Positions 22,938 through 30,480 of a stretch of DNA of 64,000 nt are shown piece by piece. The notes under the pieces were generated by a model. The model was given only the letters and a program-made list of their open reading frames with translations, had not been told where the DNA came from and did not search any database. The position numbers were made by a program, and so were the translations under genes. The stretch comes from Trichocoleus sp. FACHB-40 (lineage in GTDB: Bacteria > Cyanobacteriota > Cyanobacteriia > Cyanobacteriales > FACHB-T130), in assembly GCF_014695915.1 (NCBI RefSeq), contig NZ_JACJPF010000068.1:1-64000 (forward strand). Direction: 5' to 3'. The stretch's first letter is position 1. Every line of letters begins with the position of its first letter.

Positions 22938-24629
22938 TCACCTTAAAAACCGTCGCACTGAGGCGCTGATTAAATCTACCGAAAAAGTGAGAACGAGAAA
23001 GACAATTAAAGTGGTGAGAAGTCCTTTGTAGTCAAAGCTACTCAGTTGTTCCGCCAGCAAACGCCCTAATCCGCCAGCACCTACTAACCCGACAATGACG
23101 GTAGAACGGATGCAGACTTCCCAACGGTAAAGGATGTAGGCGACAAATCGGGGGAGGGTGCGGGGTAAGATGCCATAGAGGAAGACTTGGGAATCAGTAG
23201 CGCCCAATGCTTTAAGGGAGGTTATTGGACGCTGTTCTAAATTTTCTACCACTTCCGCCATCAGACGACCTAGTATACCCAGGTTGTGCAGGGAAAGCGC
23301 GATCGCTCCCGGCAAAATCCCCGGAAACAACACAAATAGAAAGATTAATGCCCAAATGGGTTCGGGGACAGCACGAGCAACTAACAGCAGGAATCGGGTA
23401 ACAAACAGCACAACGTTTCCCCGGAGCTCCCCCCTTGCCCCCGACAACAGGAAATTATTTGCTGCTGGGAAAGAAAGAAAAATTCCTCCTAATCCAGCCC
23501 CAGCCATTGCCAGAATAGACATAGCCAGCGTTTTAGCAGAAAGCTCGAATAGCTGACTCAGCTGGCTGAAATCGGGTGGCAAAGCATCCTGAAACACTCC
23601 TGCCAAAAGTTGAAAGGTTCGCGGCGAGTAAAGTTTAGAATAATCAGCTTGGACGTACCAGAAGGAGAATATTGCTAAAACCACGGTACCCAGAAATGAC
23701 ACCTTCACCACTGGGTCATTTTGGTAGAGAGGCTTTTTGCGCCCAGAAAGATTTAAGACGTTCAAATCTAGGCGAGAAGGCGCACCCAAGCGGCGACGCA
23801 GCATCGCACTCCAGAAATCGGTAGCACCAGTTAGTAAAATTAAGGCAATTAAAAACGTCCACATCTGTTCATAGCGTAGGGATTGGAGGCTGAGAAAAAT
23901 TTGATACCCCAATCCACCAGCACCGATAATTCCCAGTACGGCGGCGGAACGAATCGAACACTCGAACCTGTAGAAAGCGTAGGAAAGCAAATTTAGAAAA
24001 GCTTGGAGAATCAGGCTATAAATAAAAGCATTCAGAGGTGGAACGCCGCTATTGAGGAGTGCCATTAGTGGCTGGCGAGGCGTTTCGTCTAGAATTTCTG
24101 AAAATACTTTTGCAGTTATAGCACCAAAAGGAATAGCGATCGCTAGCACCGCCACCAGGGGATCTAGTCCAAAAATATTGACGAAAAACAATCCCCAAAT
24201 TAACTCGTGAATTGCTCTTGGAATCGCCAAAACTCCTCTTACCACCAGCCAAGGCGATTGAGTTATTAGCTTCCTTTTTTGAGTTTTGAGTACAGATTCC
24301 CACCAAACTTCAGAGGAAAGAATACCAGCAACCAAACCGATCAATACGCTGAAGAAGGTGCCGCAAACCGCGTAAGCTAGTGTTTTAAAAGTGGCATCCA
24401 AAGTAAGTTGGAGAAATTCCGGGCTGAAGTCGGGATGGACAGCAGCAACCAGAAAACGCCAAACCAGGTTCCAGCCTCCTTCGTTGATTAAATCTCGCTC
24501 AAATACGCCAGCTGAGTGCAACGACCAAACGAAAGATGCTAAAAATAGCAATCCCCACAAAGTACGCCAGTTAAAAATGGAAGGGCGCTTGGGGAGGGTA
24601 GTTGGTTTGCGATTTAAAGTTTTTTTCAT
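22938..24629 (-). CDS. phnE: ABC transporter permease, tandem PhnE-type domains
   Basis: From ATG 24629 (MKKTLNRKPTTLPKRPS) this is 563 residues; a start at 24677 adds 16. It holds two copies of the PhnE-type permease domain, each with a coupling-helix-like segment near GVPPLNAFIYS or GATDSQVFLYGILP and the strings IGAGGLGYQIF and VGAGGLGRLLAEQL. One chain can thus form the whole membrane pore that normally needs two. It matches the binding protein at 29513 and ATPase at 28285 but is cut off from them by a three-gene insert on the other strand, so it now needs its own promoter. Confidence 0.85.
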   Translation of the reverse strand: MKKTLNRKPTTLPKRPSIFNWRTLWGLLFLASFVWSLHSAGVFERDLINEGGWNLVWRFLVAAVHPDFSPEFLQLTLDATFKTLAYAVCGTFFSVLIGLVAGILSSEVWWESVLKTQKRKLITQSPWLVVRGVLAIPRAIHELIWGLFFVNIFGLDPLVAVLAIAIPFGAITAKVFSEILDETPRQPLMALLNSGVPPLNAFIYSLILQAFLNLLSYAFYRFECSIRSAAVLGIIGAGGLGYQIFLSLQSLRYEQMWTFLIALILLTGATDFWSAMLRRRLGAPSRLDLNVLNLSGRKKPLYQNDPVVKVSFLGTVVLAIFSFWYVQADYSKLYSPRTFQLLAGVFQDALPPDFSQLSQLFELSAKTLAMSILAMAGAGLGGIFLSFPAANNFLLSGARGELRGNVVLFVTRFLLLVARAVPEPIWALIFLFVLFPGILPGAIALSLHNLGILGRLMAEVVENLEQRPITSLKALGATDSQVFLYGILPRTLPRFVAYILYRWEVCIRSTVIVGLVGAGGLGRLLAEQLSSFDYKGLLTTLIVFLVLTFSVDLISASVRRFLR

Positions 24630-25067
24630 ATCAAATCCAAGAACCCTCTCTTGTTTAAATGGAACTGACATAACCACAAGTCTTGTGTTATAACCTCAGT
24701 AAATCTGTAGCTGAAGCTATATAATTCCCCCGTAAGTCAATACCATTCCTCTGTCAATACCATGTATTTAACTTATAAGCTTTGTATCAAAATTATGAAT
24801 TTTGTTATTCCTAATTTTGAGGTTTGTTGGTTTAGGTAAAAGTTAGGTATTTTGCTCTATTGCCCATCTTGATACCTCGTGCATCGATCTAAGCCTTCAG
24901 GGCGTTGAGTATAATAAATATGTAGAGTCCTCTTAGAGCATATTTTGCAGTGCCTGGGTCACAGGTTCGTTCTTCCGAACCACGTAGCCATTGGTAAAGA
25001 CGTGGAATTGGTTGTACTCTGCACAAACTTAACTACACAGAACTTCGTCATAATTAGCTTAACAATC
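24630..25067. other. Intergenic region between phnE and the McrB-like gene
   Basis: No gene is supported. It holds an inverted repeat near 24670-24691 (ACAAGTCTTGT core), two direct ATGGTATTGAC units on the minus strand (24736-24746, 24753-24763), and TATAAT at 24910-24915 facing the McrB-like gene. One edge of the insertion that split the transporter operon must lie here. Confidence 0.5.
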
Positions 25068-26123
25068 GTGAAACTTCCCATTCAGAAAATCCTCTTCGGT
25101 AGCCCCGGAACCGGGAAAAGCTACAAAATTGATCACGAAATTATCCCGAATGATTTAGAAATAAATAAATTGCTAAATCCAGAGAATATTATAAAAACAG
25201 TTTTTCATCCAGAATATACCTACGGTGATTTTATGGGGAAACTGGTGCCAATAACTAAATTTGGAGGAAAACCTGAATATAATTTTTATGAGGGACATTT
25301 TCTAAAAGCTTTAGGACAGGCTTACAAAAATATTCAGATAACAAAGCCAAAATTTTTTGAGCAAATTAACTGGGATGATGTTAATAATGTCGCTTTAGTT
25401 ATTGATGAAATTAATCGAGGCAACTCTGCTTCAATCTTTGGTGTTTGTTTTCAATTGCTTGATAGAGAAGAGACAGGATGGTCAAGCTATAGTGTAAATC
25501 TTACAGAAATTGAATTTTATAAATTTATCGAGTTGATAGGAGTAAAAATATCTCTAGTCGATGGCAACCTCAAATTTCAGTTTCCCGGCGACAGTCATTT
25601 TGTTTTTTTCGATGCTTTAAAAGACAAATTTACCCCATTAGGAGTAAATACAGAGACTAAGACAATAATGCTCCCGCCAAATCTGTCAATCCTTGCCAGT
25701 ATGAACACCTCCGACAACTCCATTTACTTTATGGACAGTGCCTTCAAGCGGCGTTGGGATTGGGAATTTATTAACTGGGATGGTAGTAAGCCTCCTACTG
25801 CCACATACGGAAAAGGGGGAACTTTAGAGGAGAAGGACTGGAGAAAACTAATCAAAAACCTTAACGGCTTCATAAAAAGTCATCACGCCTCCGTCCGTGG
25901 GATTGAGGACAAGCAGGTTGGTTATTATTTCATCAAACAGCCCGTAACGGCTGAACAGATACAAAATAAACTAATGTTCTTCTTGTGGGATAGCGTTTTT
26001 AATCGGGATAAAAAACCACTTGAAGAGCTTCTTAAGGTAAAAAGAGATGAACTTGTCACATTCGGAGATTTCACTAAATTACATAATATTTTTATTGAAA
26101 GTATTATGAATCTCAAAAGTTGA
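25068..26123 (+). CDS. McrB-like AAA+ NTPase
   Basis: From GTG 25068 (VKLPIQKILFGSPGTGKS) the protein has 351 residues; longer reads from 24945 have no coding look. Walker A is GSPGTGKS (11-18). ALVIDEINRGN (109-119) is the Walker B of McrB proteins, with the Asn-Arg-Gly-Asn tail. ASMNTSDNSIYFMDSAFKRR contains the sensor Asn and arginine finger region. Such proteins form hexamers that move DNA and drive an McrC nuclease. Unlike E. coli McrB it has no N-terminal DNA-binding domain, so target recognition must lie in a partner. The nuclease gene follows after 52 bases. Confidence 0.85.
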   Translation: MKLPIQKILFGSPGTGKSYKIDHEIIPNDLEINKLLNPENIIKTVFHPEYTYGDFMGKLVPITKFGGKPEYNFYEGHFLKALGQAYKNIQITKPKFFEQINWDDVNNVALVIDEINRGNSASIFGVCFQLLDREETGWSSYSVNLTEIEFYKFIELIGVKISLVDGNLKFQFPGDSHFVFFDALKDKFTPLGVNTETKTIMLPPNLSILASMNTSDNSIYFMDSAFKRRWDWEFINWDGSKPPTATYGKGGTLEEKDWRKLIKNLNGFIKSHHASVRGIEDKQVGYYFIKQPVTAEQIQNKLMFFLWDSVFNRDKKPLEELLKVKRDELVTFGDFTKLHNIFIESIMNLKS

Positions 26124-26175
26124 TTTCCCTCAATGTTGTCAATCGAAAATACTAGGTTTTATTCTTTTATGAGCC

Positions 26176-27735
26176 GTGTTTGACTTTAATAGCCTTAAGC
26201 TGATAAAAGGTTCCAATGATTTTTTTGTTGGCATCCGTAAGTCTGTATCCGGGGATGGTTTTGAGTTTTGTCTGCCAAACGGCTTTGATAACTTTCCGGA
26301 GGGGGATTTCGACGAGGTGCGAGATTTATTTTTCAAGATGTACCGCACGTTTCGCAAGTTTGAGCGCCACAATAAAGACACCAATCGATTCAAGATAAAC
26401 ACATCTGAATATCAGCGAGATCAAGATCAGACAACCCTTTCCTCCGGCGGAATTAGTATGCAGACTGAGGAAGGAGAAGTTTGTGTGCTATACAGCAAGA
26501 TCAAGATGATCGAGCAGGTGCTGGAAGCCTACGATGACCTTGCTATCAACTCGATCCAAAAGAAAGTTAGGCGCAGTGAGGACATTGACTATTTTCAGAT
26601 TCACAAATACTTAGATCGTGCTATCTACCTAGATAACGATGCACTTTACGTCGATGTGATGGATTTGCCGCGTCCGACGTTACGCTATGAAAGCACTGAC
26701 ATAGTGAATCTGTATTGTTACATTCTTGATGAGATTGTACAGCAGTTGCAGGCCGATGTATCGGAGAACATTAAAGCACACAGTCAGGATATTCGCTTTC
26801 TTGCCCAGCGCTTCAAGGACAACTACTTGACTAGCAATCAGTCTATTTTTGACAAAGACACTTTCGTAGAGACCATCAACATCCTTAAGGAAACGTTCGA
26901 CAACATAGACAAGAACACTTATTACAAGGACGCTGACTATTGGGGACTTTACGAAGCCATTGAGATATTCTTGTACGGCGAAATCAATCCCAACCAGAAC
27001 GATGGTAACTATTGGGGAATGAGAGGATTTTCCCTACTGTGGGAGGATATGTGCCACACCTACTTCTTTAAAAAACACCGCGACGAAATCTGCTATGCGG
27101 ATACGGATATACCTTTGGAAAATCCTCCAAATCCCTCACCTAAGAGGCAAAGCGAAGAATTGAAACGGGTTGGTAATTACCAAAACCATCATGGGAATGG
27201 GTTTGGTAATCAATGGATTTATCGGACAGAATCGAATATTCCATACCCCAAAAAAGTAGGAAAATTTGGATGGAATGAACTACTTTGTATTGAATTTGAT
27301 ACCCAACCAGGAACTTGGGTTTACTCAAGTCCCAAGTATAATGAGTTACAGCACCGAGATAGAAGTCAAGCTTTACGTCGTTTTCCGCGTCCTGACTTGG
27401 TTTTAAGAACTGATCCAGAAAATGATTTTCAGTTAAAAATAGTTGATTATAAAGATGTACCACTTGATTTTTATGTCCATCCTAAATCATCACCAAAATC
27501 TGCGAAGAAATATAGAGATGATATTATCAAACAGCTAACCTATGAATTCGCATTGCAGCAAAAACATAACATATTAGAAAACGTGTTTTTAATTCCTTAT
27601 TATTACGAATCAGATTCAATTCGTGAGCCTTTGGGAGAATTTGAGGCGCTTGAAGACCAAAAGCTTAGAGGAATCAAGATATTCAAAGCCAATTTTTTGC
27701 TAATTCAAAAAATATATTTAGATAAAAATCCATGA
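26176..27735 (+). CDS. McrC/LlaJI-like PD-(D/E)XK restriction nuclease
   Basis: A 519-residue protein with a GTG start (26176); an in-frame TGA just upstream rules out a longer form. The N-terminal half is poorly conserved and may contact the ATPase and DNA. FSLLWEDMC (about 282-290) corresponds to the block before the nuclease core in McrC/LlaJI proteins. The catalytic site is RPDLVL with Asp407 and VDYKD with Asp424 and Lys426, a PD-(D/E)XK pattern. It should cut DNA when driven by the McrB-like protein. No methyltransferase gene is nearby, favouring a modification-dependent (type IV-like) system. The third gene overlaps its stop codon by four bases. Confidence 0.75.
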   Translation: MFDFNSLKLIKGSNDFFVGIRKSVSGDGFEFCLPNGFDNFPEGDFDEVRDLFFKMYRTFRKFERHNKDTNRFKINTSEYQRDQDQTTLSSGGISMQTEEGEVCVLYSKIKMIEQVLEAYDDLAINSIQKKVRRSEDIDYFQIHKYLDRAIYLDNDALYVDVMDLPRPTLRYESTDIVNLYCYILDEIVQQLQADVSENIKAHSQDIRFLAQRFKDNYLTSNQSIFDKDTFVETINILKETFDNIDKNTYYKDADYWGLYEAIEIFLYGEINPNQNDGNYWGMRGFSLLWEDMCHTYFFKKHRDEICYADTDIPLENPPNPSPKRQSEELKRVGNYQNHHGNGFGNQWIYRTESNIPYPKKVGKFGWNELLCIEFDTQPGTWVYSSPKYNELQHRDRSQALRRFPRPDLVLRTDPENDFQLKIVDYKDVPLDFYVHPKSSPKSAKKYRDDIIKQLTYEFALQQKHNILENVFLIPYYYESDSIREPLGEFEALEDQKLRGIKIFKANFLLIQKIYLDKNP

Positions 27736-28253
27736 ATTCCGAAGCAGACATTATTGGAATATCCTCAAACCATTTAAACTTTCAGAGTAAATATGTTCCT
27801 TTTCTATCCTTTACGAACCAAGACCAAAAAATAGTAGCCGAAAATTACATTTATCAAGAAGTATCTGCTTTTTTTGAAAAAATATTACCCGGCCAAGCTG
27901 TAATCCCAATTGCTTATGCCAAACTCATCACAGAAGCAGACTTTAAAAAAATTGAAATTAGCTATTTTTATGAAAATCTATTCCACGACTTAGAGCGCAA
28001 ACCTAACGGTCAATTAGAACCAAAAATTAGATGGGTCCTTACTTTCGACGAAAAATGCGCTCCACTTCAGCTAGCATCGACTCCTCTAAACCATACGGGT
28101 TATAAAAAGCCTAGTCTATTGTATAAGGATACAAAAGGTCGCCCGCATCGACGATTTGGCACTATAGATATCAATGGAACTCCAGTTTTTTACTACATTT
28201 ACTTCACACTTCAAGAAATCTTGGATGTTATTAAAGGACTACCAAGATATTGA
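27732..28253 (+). CDS. Uncharacterised third protein of the McrBC-like cassette
   Basis: A 173-residue protein I do not recognise. Its ATG overlaps the stop of the nuclease gene as ATGA, so translation is probably coupled. It is soluble, acidic at the start (MNSEADIIGISSNHL), with a helix around AENYIYQEVSAFFEKIL, a strand-rich middle (IRWVLTFDEK) and a C-terminal half with KGRPHRRFGTIDI and VFYYIYFTLQEI. No catalytic motif is evident. Given the missing DNA-binding domain of the McrB-like partner, it may supply target recognition or regulation; that is inference only. Confidence 0.7.
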   Translation: MNSEADIIGISSNHLNFQSKYVPFLSFTNQDQKIVAENYIYQEVSAFFEKILPGQAVIPIAYAKLITEADFKKIEISYFYENLFHDLERKPNGQLEPKIRWVLTFDEKCAPLQLASTPLNHTGYKKPSLLYKDTKGRPHRRFGTIDINGTPVFYYIYFTLQEILDVIKGLPRY

Positions 28254-28284: not shown

Positions 28285-29067
28285 CTATATAGAACTCAGG
28301 TTGTACAATTCCTCAATCATTGCGTCGGACAGTGCTGCTGCTTGTGTATCAAATAGAATACGCCCCTGTCGCAAACCGATAATTCGCTGATAATGACTGC
28401 GGGCAAATTCTATCGCGTGAACACTGGTAACTAAAGTTTTCCCCGTTTCTACACTCAACTGGCGCAATAAGTCCATAATCTCGCGGCTGCGTTCGGGGTC
28501 GAGGCTGGAAATTGGTTCATCGGCAAGAATAGCGGTAGGATTTTGCACGAGGACGCGCGCGATCGCTACCCGTTGCTGTTGACCGCCAGAAAGTTTATCT
28601 GTGCGTTCATAAAGCTTTTCAGGAATACCCACCTGTGCTAGTGCTTTTACCGCTGTCTCGACTTCCATTGGATAAATCAGCGAAGCCGCAGCTTTTAGAA
28701 ATGACCAGCGCCCCAGATGCCCTGCATTGACATTATGAATCACCCGCAAATTATCCACCAGATGAAATTGCTGGTAAATCGTACCAATTTGGCGCTGAAC
28801 CTGACGCAACAATTTTGGGCGAAGCTGGGCGAGGTTGCGACCAAGTACCCAAACTTCTCCTTGAGTGGGTAACTGGGTGCCGTTCAGCAAGCTAATCAGG
28901 GTGCTTTTCCCCGCGCCACTGGAACCAACCAGCGCCACGCGATCGCCTGCACGAATCTGCAAGTTAATCTCAGCGAGAGATTCAAAGCGTCCAAATTGCT
29001 TAGAAACGTTTTTCAGTTCAAATACTGGCGCAGATGAGTTCATTTCTCTGCTTAGTTTGCTATCCAT
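28285..29067 (-). CDS. phnC: ABC transporter ATPase, PhnC type
   Basis: A 260-residue ATPase with all motifs: Walker A GSSGAGKST, Q-loop (GTIYQQFHLVDN), signature LSGGQQQRVAIARVL, Walker B AILADEPISSLDPE and the H-loop VTSVHAIEFA. GTIYQQFHLVDNL is typical of PhnC-like phosphonate ATPases. The start may be 29067 (overlapping the GNAT gene by 16 bases) or ATG 29043. It energises import by the binding protein at 29513 and permease at 22938. The permease gene would be expected next, but the McrBC-like cassette intervenes. Confidence 0.9.
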   Translation of the reverse strand: MDSKLSREMNSSAPVFELKNVSKQFGRFESLAEINLQIRAGDRVALVGSSGAGKSTLISLLNGTQLPTQGEVWVLGRNLAQLRPKLLRQVQRQIGTIYQQFHLVDNLRVIHNVNAGHLGRWSFLKAAASLIYPMEVETAVKALAQVGIPEKLYERTDKLSGGQQQRVAIARVLVQNPTAILADEPISSLDPERSREIMDLLRQLSVETGKTLVTSVHAIEFARSHYQRIIGLRQGRILFDTQAAALSDAMIEELYNLSSI

Positions 29068-29507
29068 TTAGTCATAAGATAGCGATCGTGATCTTTAAAA
29101 CCAACCTTCCGATATAAGTTTTGTGCTGCTGTATTTTTCTGCTCAACTTCTAAATGAAGTGCTTGAATTCCCAGAGAAGGGCAAACAGCTTCTATAAACT
29201 GTATTACGTTCATGCCTACCCCTTGCCCCCGATAACTTTCTCGAATATAGAGTTCATCAATAAAGGCATCGCGCCCTCGAAATTCCAAACTGTAGCCAAA
29301 GGTAAGGACAACGTAGCCAATCGCTTCGTCGCCATGCTGGATCAGCCACACTCGTCCTAGAGAATCATCATGCAAAATATTCGCCAACGCTGTGCGAACA
29401 ATGGATTCATCAAACTTTAGGTGTTCAAACTCGTAGAACTCTTGTATAAACTCCACAAGAGTTTCAGTATCTGATCTTTCTGCAATTTTAAAGTTTGTTT
29501 TTGTCAT
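29052..29507 (-). CDS. GNAT-family N-acetyltransferase
   Basis: A 151-residue single-domain acetyltransferase. LYIRESYRGQGVGMNVIQFIE holds the acetyl-CoA-binding R/Q-x-x-G-x-G/A loop, and ALHLEVEQKNTAAQNLYRKVGFKDHDRYLM is, in two blocks, the usual C-terminal strand and helix (N-x-x-A-x-x-L-Y). It lies six bases after the binding-protein gene and overlaps the ATPase gene, so it is part of the importer operon. I recall GNAT genes in putative selenate/phosphonate transporter clusters; the substrate here is unknown. Confidence 0.88.
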   Translation of the reverse strand: MTKTNFKIAERSDTETLVEFIQEFYEFEHLKFDESIVRTALANILHDDSLGRVWLIQHGDEAIGYVVLTFGYSLEFRGRDAFIDELYIRESYRGQGVGMNVIQFIEAVCPSLGIQALHLEVEQKNTAAQNLYRKVGFKDHDRYLMTKWIAN

Positions 29508-29512
29508 TTACA

Positions 29513-30424
29513 TCACTTTATTTTGCCAATTTTCCGACCAATATCCTCAATTTGAGCATAGTTGGAGTTTTGGGTAGGAATAAATTTAGTTGCTTGTAAA
29601 AGGTCGAGAATTTCTTTTTGCTCTGGTACGTTGGGGTCTAGTTTTAAAAAGGCGTTTTGCACTTTTTTAACAAAATCCTCGCCATAGCGCTGTTTGACAT
29701 CGGGGTGAATTACCCAGTGATAGTCGTAGTAGGCGGGTGTCTGCCAAAGGACTTCTACTTTGTTCAAATCTACTTCTTTCGCATCAACTCGCTTTTTCCA
29801 GACGCTTTCGTTGACAGCACCAGCATCAAAACTACCTACTTCCACTAATTTTATTGTCTTATCGTGGTCGCCGGAAAAGCCAACTTCACCTTTAAAATCT
29901 TCCAGTTTCAAACCTGCTTGTTGCAGGAAATATTGCGGCATCAAACGCCCCGATGTGGAGGATTCGCTGCCGAAGGTTAAAGTACGACCTTTGAGTTGTT
30001 TTAAATCAGAAATATCTTTAAATGGCTTCAGCCCGGTTTTTTTGTTAGCGATGAAGAGACTATGGAATTTCTCGTCAATATCGCGTTGCGCGATCGCTGC
30101 CGCACCTGGTACTTGCAACCGTGCTTGCACCCCAGTCAATCCGCCAAACCAAACTAAATCTAAATCCCCCACTTTAAATGCGGTGACAGCTGCGGTATAG
30201 TCTGTGACAGGCTTATATTCTACTGGCACACCCAATTCTTTCTCTAAATAGGTGGCTAACTTGTCATATTGACGCTGCAACTTTTGCGGATCTTGATCTG
30301 GAATTGCCCCAATTTCTAGAGCTTGTTTTGCCTGATTTGAGCCAGTCGCCACTGTTCCAGATGGGGAGGGCGAACAAGCCCCTAGAGACAGCACCAACAA
30401 ACCTGACAACAAGACTTTTTTCAT
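29513..30424 (-). CDS. Phosphonate/selenate-type ABC transporter binding lipoprotein
   Basis: From ATG 30424 (MKKVLLSGLLVLSLGACSPS) this is a 303-residue lipoprotein with the lipobox LSLGAC. GAIPDQDPQKLQRQYDKLATY, VPVEYKPVTDYTAAVTAF and DLVWFGGLTGVQAR are PhnD-superfamily blocks. The wording GAIPDQDP and FGGLTGVQAR matches what I remember of proteins annotated as putative selenate ABC binding proteins, so selenate or a phosphonate/phosphite are the candidate ligands. It is the first gene of the importer operon with the GNAT, ATPase and (separated) permease. Confidence 0.85.
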   Translation of the reverse strand: MKKVLLSGLLVLSLGACSPSPSGTVATGSNQAKQALEIGAIPDQDPQKLQRQYDKLATYLEKELGVPVEYKPVTDYTAAVTAFKVGDLDLVWFGGLTGVQARLQVPGAAAIAQRDIDEKFHSLFIANKKTGLKPFKDISDLKQLKGRTLTFGSESSTSGRLMPQYFLQQAGLKLEDFKGEVGFSGDHDKTIKLVEVGSFDAGAVNESVWKKRVDAKEVDLNKVEVLWQTPAYYDYHWVIHPDVKQRYGEDFVKKVQNAFLKLDPNVPEQKEILDLLQATKFIPTQNSNYAQIEDIGRKIGKIK

Positions 30425-30480
30425 ATCTGATTTGAACTTCACTCTTTGCCAGAAGATAGTGTAAACGATGCTGGTAGCTT

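Follow-up and report, generated by a model that had tools for sequence, protein, structure and literature searches.

A three-gene cassette in Trichocoleus sp. FACHB-40

We analysed a stretch of 64,000 nucleotides from the cyanobacterium Trichocoleus sp. FACHB-40 (contig NZ_JACJPF010000068.1), hereafter the window; the genome it belongs to is referred to as G000. The window holds a compact plus-strand cassette of three genes, here named B, C and X, in which the start of X and the stop of C share 4 nt:

25068..26123, plus strand: B, an McrB/LlaJI-R1-type AAA+ NTPase with no N-terminal recognition domain (351 amino acids, GTG start)
26176..27735, plus strand: C, a divergent LlaJI-R2/McrC-like protein with PD-(D/E)xK nuclease residues (519 amino acids, GTG start)
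27732..28253, plus strand: X, a conserved third subunit whose member here has no family or fold match (173 amino acids, ATG start)

An earlier note, made from the sequence alone, had described the cassette as McrB/McrC-like. The motifs behind that description are present in both proteins, and key residues are invariant in the 32 B and 42 C sequences compared.

B and C are related to the restriction proteins of LlaJI and McrBC

The GTG start of B at 25068 aligns with the ATG starts of its relatives. B carries a Walker A motif (GSPGTGKS), a Walker B motif (LVIDEINRGN), the sequence NTSD, which has the form NxxD, and the sequence FKRRW. Residues K17, D113, E114, N213, D216 and R228-R229 are invariant across 32 aligned B proteins. 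Pfam returned AAA_5 only, at 3e-4 and below cut-off, the NCBIfam McrB model matched at 1.4e-7, far below cut-off, and PADLOC assigned B to 'REase_II' (2.9e-30). A profile of B found the solved McrB at 1.1e-25, and its comparison with a profile of four LlaJI R1-type plasmid proteins gave a probability of 100 and an E-value of 4e-61. CoCoNuT systems are defined by an NxD motif in an McrB-like GTPase (PMC11090510); the corresponding motif of B is NxxD.

Ten residues precede the Walker A glycine (G11) of B, and B therefore has no N-terminal recognition or modified-base-binding domain. We scanned B from five relatives: L029 has Mrr_N and leucine-rich repeats, L035 has Mrr_N, L031 and L052 have leucine-rich repeats, and L016 has neither. 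The fusions of an McrB-type NTPase to leucine-rich repeats lie at L029:6242-8005 (the one with Mrr_N too), L031:5753-8005 and L052:5285-7051.

In C, residues P406, D407, D424 and K426 are invariant (42 of 42 sequences). The window's C has no match in Pfam, NCBIfam or PADLOC, and the McrC models of Pfam match neither it nor its 36 relatives; among these 37 members, three match RE_LlaJI at E <= 0.1 (best 3.3e-9). A PF09563 search of G000 found nothing. Compared with a profile of four LlaJI R2-type proteins, C gave a probability of 93.6 and an E-value of 2.1e-7, in an alignment that includes the PD and DxK residues, and a homologue of C on a Nostoc plasmid is annotated 'LlaJI family restriction endonuclease'. 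The predicted structure of C has a predicted local distance difference test score (pLDDT) of 72 and a predicted template modelling score (pTM) of 0.76. Its best fold match, over the length of C, is 9a5m_A, from an entry titled YdjA-YdiS (Z 12.9, 325 residues aligned); the root-mean-square deviation (rmsd) of 10.4 is high and calls for caution, and chain A may be either YdjA or YdiS. Among several further matches is the McrC of Thermococcus (TgMcrC; Z 7.2, rmsd 11.8, 278 aligned). The C of L025 was excluded from the fold alignment for an ambiguous base.

X is the constant partner of one C subtype

A pattern-based, not exhaustive, scan of genome contigs gave 43 B-C-X loci. By title, 19 are from Cyanobacteriota, 17 from Pseudomonadota and 6 from Bacteroidota, and one is labelled Flavobacterium but resembles a cyanobacterial locus. 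In this last, a metagenome-assembled genome (MAG; L023), the lengths of B, C and X equal those of the cyanobacterial locus L022; judged by these lengths, it is probably mis-binned. X follows C in all 39 loci where C reaches the end of its profile and at least 600 nt follow, a count in which the C of L020 and of L043 was read in two pieces; of the remaining four loci, three are cut by a contig end and one, L026, is broken. The earlier note had asked whether the three genes recur as a unit, and had named a usually absent third gene as evidence against its reading; the unit does recur, in three phyla, with the third gene present. For this subtype, the idea that the third gene is dispensable is ruled out by the 39 loci. 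The reading frames of C and X overlap in most loci.

The three proteins have covarying distances in the 37 sets compared (Mantel r 0.85, 0.92 and 0.82; 0 of 1000 permutations in each case). Distance and length statistics were drawn from the window and 36 loci in which B, C and X are each found once in full; L012, L020, L026, L027, L036, L043, L051 and L085-L090 were excluded.

We also searched 386 genomes of the host phylum. A C-like match, in some cases a fragment, occurs in 26 genomes and the X core in 11. The X core is found at 12 places, 11 of them beside a near-full-length C and one in a decayed B/C locus, and two more genomes match the X profile solely in its C-terminal extension. In three genomes (G038, G121 and G264), C and X are fused as one protein. 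A sister subtype of two genes, with a longer C (frames of 606-700 amino acids), occurs at 14 places in these genomes. The X core matches at none of them, and we likewise found no X by profile in the sister loci that we read (L085 and L086 from these 14, and L087). X is the constant partner of one C subtype, and the pattern of co-inheritance and fusion makes it likely that X is bound to C.

Three plasmids carry copies of the cassette, each with X. C has no match in 50,697 phage records and no confirmed match in viral contigs, and X has no match in viral contigs. The search of viral contigs with B led to eight LlaJI-like loci, none of which has X by profile. Some of these sets overlap: judged by length, L040 and L089 are the same contig, as are L050 and L090, and the genome of L022 and G295 give identical places.

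Some copies depart from the common form. In Crocosphaera watsonii (L026) the cassette has decayed, with B interrupted and C truncated, and in L134 (G416) all three genes are in pieces. The sister locus L085 has a split B with an N-terminal extension of about 158 amino acids and a cytosine-C5 (C5) methylase gene about 1.5 kb downstream. In L028 (7317-7994), L030, L038 and L052 an extra gene lies between B and C, its product having an apparent membrane helix; the L028 copy has no Pfam match.

Protein X

The window's X has no match in the copies of Pfam, NCBIfam, PADLOC and PHROGs used, and no PDB sequence match at E <= 10. Its model is fair (pLDDT 80, pTM 0.76), and comparison of its fold with the PDB and with viral structures gave nothing of note (best Foldseek E 0.73 and 0.53; best VIA Z 2.6), which does not show the fold to be new. 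Across 40 X sequences S19, Y80, D106 and Y154 are invariant. We compared X with LlaJI R2, with the C of the sister subtype and with the proteins of the LlaI-like operon described below, and found no match to any of these candidates.

X is 137-185 residues long in 26 of 36 loci, with C-terminal additions in others. Two X proteins end in the Pfam domain Lcl_C (seen directly in L030, and by alignment in L028). An S1/CSD-like domain (Pfam S1CSD-TOTE-2) is present in 2 of the 40, probably the X proteins of the two Moraxella loci (L047 and L049), in which the C-terminal part also matches PADLOC PDC-M16B; the window's X shares none of these domain matches. Several of the long X members from Bacteroidota and cyanobacteria share a C-terminal addition that has no Pfam match. 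NCBIfam ShyC matches 8 of the 40 X proteins (best 0.0049) and phrog_1735 matches 5 (best 4e-17), the window's X being in neither group.

Between C and X, L028 (9334-9973) has a RelE-type toxin gene (by Pfam) and a small putative antitoxin gene, and a similar arrangement is found in L031, L035, L039 and L052. This toxin begins MIETN, as does X in several loci.

Methylases are seldom linked to the cassette

The earlier note saw no methyltransferase near the cassette. We built a C5-methylase profile from the gene near L085; it has no match in the whole window, and a search by motif revealed no N-type methylase in the 19 kb around the cassette. Nor is a cognate methyltransferase always linked elsewhere, for the profile matches 1 of the 43 B-C-X loci (L031, upstream). 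As a control, the same profile matches 7 of the 8 LlaJI-like viral loci, the eighth being cut by a contig end. A motif screen of the 43 loci, which omitted the short loci L003-L009 and whose C5 part missed the L031 gene found by profile, gave four scattered N-type candidates, one of them 0.9 kb from the cassette of L017. Besides the three B-C-X plasmids there were 61 records of LlaJI-like plasmid loci, of which we read eight. The stretch shown includes an annotated cytosine methylase in six of these; one has an Eco57I-type methylase, and one has pieces of an adenine methylase.

The earlier note had also set the cassette apart from LlaJI-type restriction-modification. The missing methylase agrees with that distinction, but by descent the two belong together, given the matches of B (4e-61) and C (2.1e-7) to LlaJI proteins.

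The cassette interrupts an importer operon

The cassette separates the ATPase gene from the permease gene in an importer operon on the minus strand, with these surroundings:

22938..24677, minus strand: importer permease, PhnE family TIGR01097 (6.5e-107)
24678..25067, no strand: AT-rich divergent intergenic stretch from the permease start to B, with no second copy in the genome
28285..29067, minus strand: importer ATPase, PhnC-like, best match TIGR02315 (4.8e-77)
29052..29507, minus strand: GNAT acetyltransferase, encoded within the importer operon; the homology shared with both empty-site genomes spans the gene
29513..30442, minus strand: importer solute-binding protein of the 'putative selenate' family TIGR04553, above cut-off

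Homology of the permease to its relatives begins near an ATG at 24629. The ATPase scores 258.6 bits against TIGR02315, below the cut-off of 266.1. Because the binding protein matches TIGR04553 above cut-off, the 'phn' names used in the earlier note are only loose.

Comparison of this junction in relatives indicates that the cassette is an insertion, as had been proposed. In two genomes of the host's family (G003 and G004) the genes for the binding protein, the GNAT protein, the ATPase and the permease are collinear with no cassette between them, and thus represent an empty site. In both, the GNAT gene is also part of the importer operon. The gap between the stretches homologous to window positions 28313 and 24613 is 106 bp, compared with 3.7 kb in the window, and over the binding-protein, GNAT and ATPase stretch DNA identity to G003 and G004 is 85% and 87%. 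A scan of 52 other loci, with flanks that reached 8 kb at most and were often shorter, gave no importer gene at E <= 1e-60. Together with the empty site, this rules out the importer operon as the ancestral position of the cassette. The cassette is also more AT-rich than its surroundings, with a G+C content of 37.7%, compared with a mean of 46.5% (standard deviation 2.1) in 544 overlapping windows of equal length elsewhere, none of which is as low.

At the threshold used, ATPase and permease genes are both encoded in the same 11 of 40 genomes (G000 included). By match coordinates the two genes are co-directional and 77 bp apart in G020, 94 bp in G014, 964 bp in G002 and 880 bp in G007; G021 has them on opposite strands, and in G012, G017 and G032 a long distance separates them. 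The wider gaps each hold one gene, opposite to the importer, encoding a protein of 228 amino acids in G002 (L079:2958-3644) and one of 283 amino acids in G007 (L082:2460-3311), the latter resembling a phytanoyl-CoA dioxygenase. Since these gaps hold other single genes, the ATPase-permease junction looks like a recurrent, tolerant insertion point. None of the repeats listed pairs the two ends of the insert, promoter-like sites are no more frequent than in shuffled sequence, and there is no Rfam match.

Comparison with known systems

LlaJI, from the Lactococcus plasmid pNP40, consists of an AAA+ protein (R1), a LlaJI nuclease (R2) and two 5-methylcytosine methylases. B aligns with R1-type proteins over the NTPase part and C with R2-type proteins, as described above. 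In LlaJI, by contrast, a pair of cytosine methylase genes lies immediately upstream and a third restriction gene is missing, and R1, unlike B, has an N-terminal DNA-binding half (PMC1459862). McrBC of E. coli and Thermococcus gammatolerans resembles the cassette in its McrB-type motor with an NxxD motif, its PD-DxK nuclease and its lack of a methylase; the cassette differs in that its B has no modified-base-binding domain, its C has no Pfam McrC match, and it has the extra subunit X.

Systems with three restriction genes and a short AAA+ subunit have been known before; LlaI and BsuM are three-gene precedents. An operon on the Lactococcus plasmid pUCCL629C (L120), which is LlaI-like and probably LlaI itself, has the same order of AAA+ gene, LlaJI-family nuclease gene and third gene. 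Its AAA+ protein is 337 amino acids long, thus without an N-terminal domain, and is 28% identical to B (E 3e-37). The operon differs in its third protein, which has 413 amino acids and an HECVH motif and no recognisable kinship to X (hhalign 0.04%), in its single nuclease, which the C profile does not recognise (probability 1.6%), and in the pieces of an adenine methylase upstream. For BsuM of Bacillus subtilis, the likeness lies in the best fold match of C to the entry titled YdjA-YdiS; RE_LlaJI profile matches also occur in B. subtilis, and ydjA is the third BsuM restriction gene. BsuM differs in having two methylases (ydiO/ydiP), and its restriction genes include ydiR and ydiS (PMC8156514). 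LlaI has been described as a three-gene operon with a methylase (a title in the reference list of PMC7680126), and an analysis from 2008 groups LlaI, BsuMI and LlaJI in a branch of McrBC that is accompanied by methylases (PMC2614495). A census of McrBC systems reserves the branches linked to methylases for a subsequent paper (PMC11090510). We found no description of a methylase-free B-C-X system in the literature searched, a search with most subscription papers outside its scope.

Discussion

We consider it probable that the cassette was acquired horizontally and encodes a three-subunit restriction system without a methyltransferase, which belongs to the LlaJI branch of the McrBC family and in which X is an obligate subunit docked on C. 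The sequence shows that the McrB-type NTPase is intact, that the nuclease keeps its PD-(D/E)xK residues and has a LlaJI/McrC-like layout, that X is inherited together with C, and that relatives have an empty site; from these we infer a function in phage defence, dependence on modification, and a role for X.

McrB rings use GTP to translocate DNA, and McrC is the partner that binds, stimulates and cuts (PMC7680126, PMC11090510). By the same logic, B would form an NTP-driven ring that moves DNA, and C would bridge and stimulate B, and cut. X may dock on C, because the two are fused in three genomes, and may take part in target recognition or gating, because B itself lacks a recognition domain. 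LlaJI R1 and McrB read DNA through their N-terminal half (PMC1459862; PMC7680126); since B lacks this half, recognition would have to lie in C, X or both. Recognition by X on C is the simplest reading, not a proven one. Neighbouring protective methylases are not conserved, and in some host genomes none could be detected; the system therefore most likely targets a feature that host DNA lacks, for example a modified base or some other sign that marks DNA as invading, and it is plausible that cutting depends on modification.

Several observations weigh against this interpretation. Neither homology nor a known fold could be detected for X, and the case for its role comes only from linkage and fusion. 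Two of the three X-less sister loci inspected (L086 and L087) also have no N-terminal domain on B, so that a B without this domain need not imply that X is the reader; some X-bearing relatives have such a domain (Mrr_N or leucine-rich repeats) yet keep X. The failure of the C profile to recognise the nuclease of the LlaI-like operon belongs here as well. As for methylases, adenine methylases were screened by motif alone, with the four candidates given above, and C5 methylases are encoded elsewhere in 27 of 30 cassette genomes (29 of them distinct), and in G000 itself, which has three matches on other contigs.

Two of these groups of observations bear on alternatives. The fused domains raise the possibility that the system senses a phage protein, a DNA end or a structure, via X or via domains fused to B or X, and acts as an abortive nuclease. 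The leucine-rich repeat fusions in the three Pseudomonadota loci tested (L029, L031 and L052) and the Lcl_C, S1/CSD-like and other C-terminal additions to X in several relatives are consistent with such sensing. We nevertheless think it unlikely, given that no such fusion exists in the window, that 26 of 36 X proteins are no longer than 137-185 residues, and that Mrr_N, a domain of DNA-reader type, is also fused to B (L029 and L035).

The C5 methylases encoded elsewhere, and the membership of B and C in the LlaJI branch, would fit an ordinary LlaJI-type restriction-modification system whose protective methylase lies at another place in the genome. This is improbable: no methylase is conserved beside the cassette, whereas the LlaJI-like relatives on viral contigs (7 of 8, C5) and plasmids (6 of 8) carry a linked one, and a pair split over two places would hardly be expected to move jointly between phyla. 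Moreover, 3 of the 30 cassette genomes (a Saprospiraceae MAG, a Bacteroidales MAG and Adhaeribacter aerolatus) have no C5-methylase match; unless these assemblies are incomplete, and two are MAGs, a C5 partner in trans is not needed by all members. That X is a regulator or antitoxin-like inhibitor of C outside the active complex is quite improbable, for although X follows C in mostly overlapping frames, as regulators often do, and the window's X has no nucleic-acid-binding signature, the fusion of C and X in three genomes indicates a fixed subunit, and the sister subtype, from which X is absent, would then need no inhibitor.

A restriction system with X docked on C leads to a bolder proposal, which we hold only tentatively: that these loci form a distinct class of McrBC/LlaJI-type defence, in which sensing has moved from the motor to a small, nuclease-docked X with interchangeable C-terminal sensor domains. 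If true, this class would work without any methylase and would sense several kinds of invader mark.

McrBC-like enzymes have been proposed to act in two exclusive modes, acting on methylated DNA by themselves or on unmethylated DNA together with methylases (PMC1459862). This two-mode rule becomes directly testable with a system of the LlaJI branch that has no linked methylases and whose conserved third subunit has no recognised fold. The analysis also brings to light the protein family of X, whose member in the window goes unrecognised by the family collections used here.

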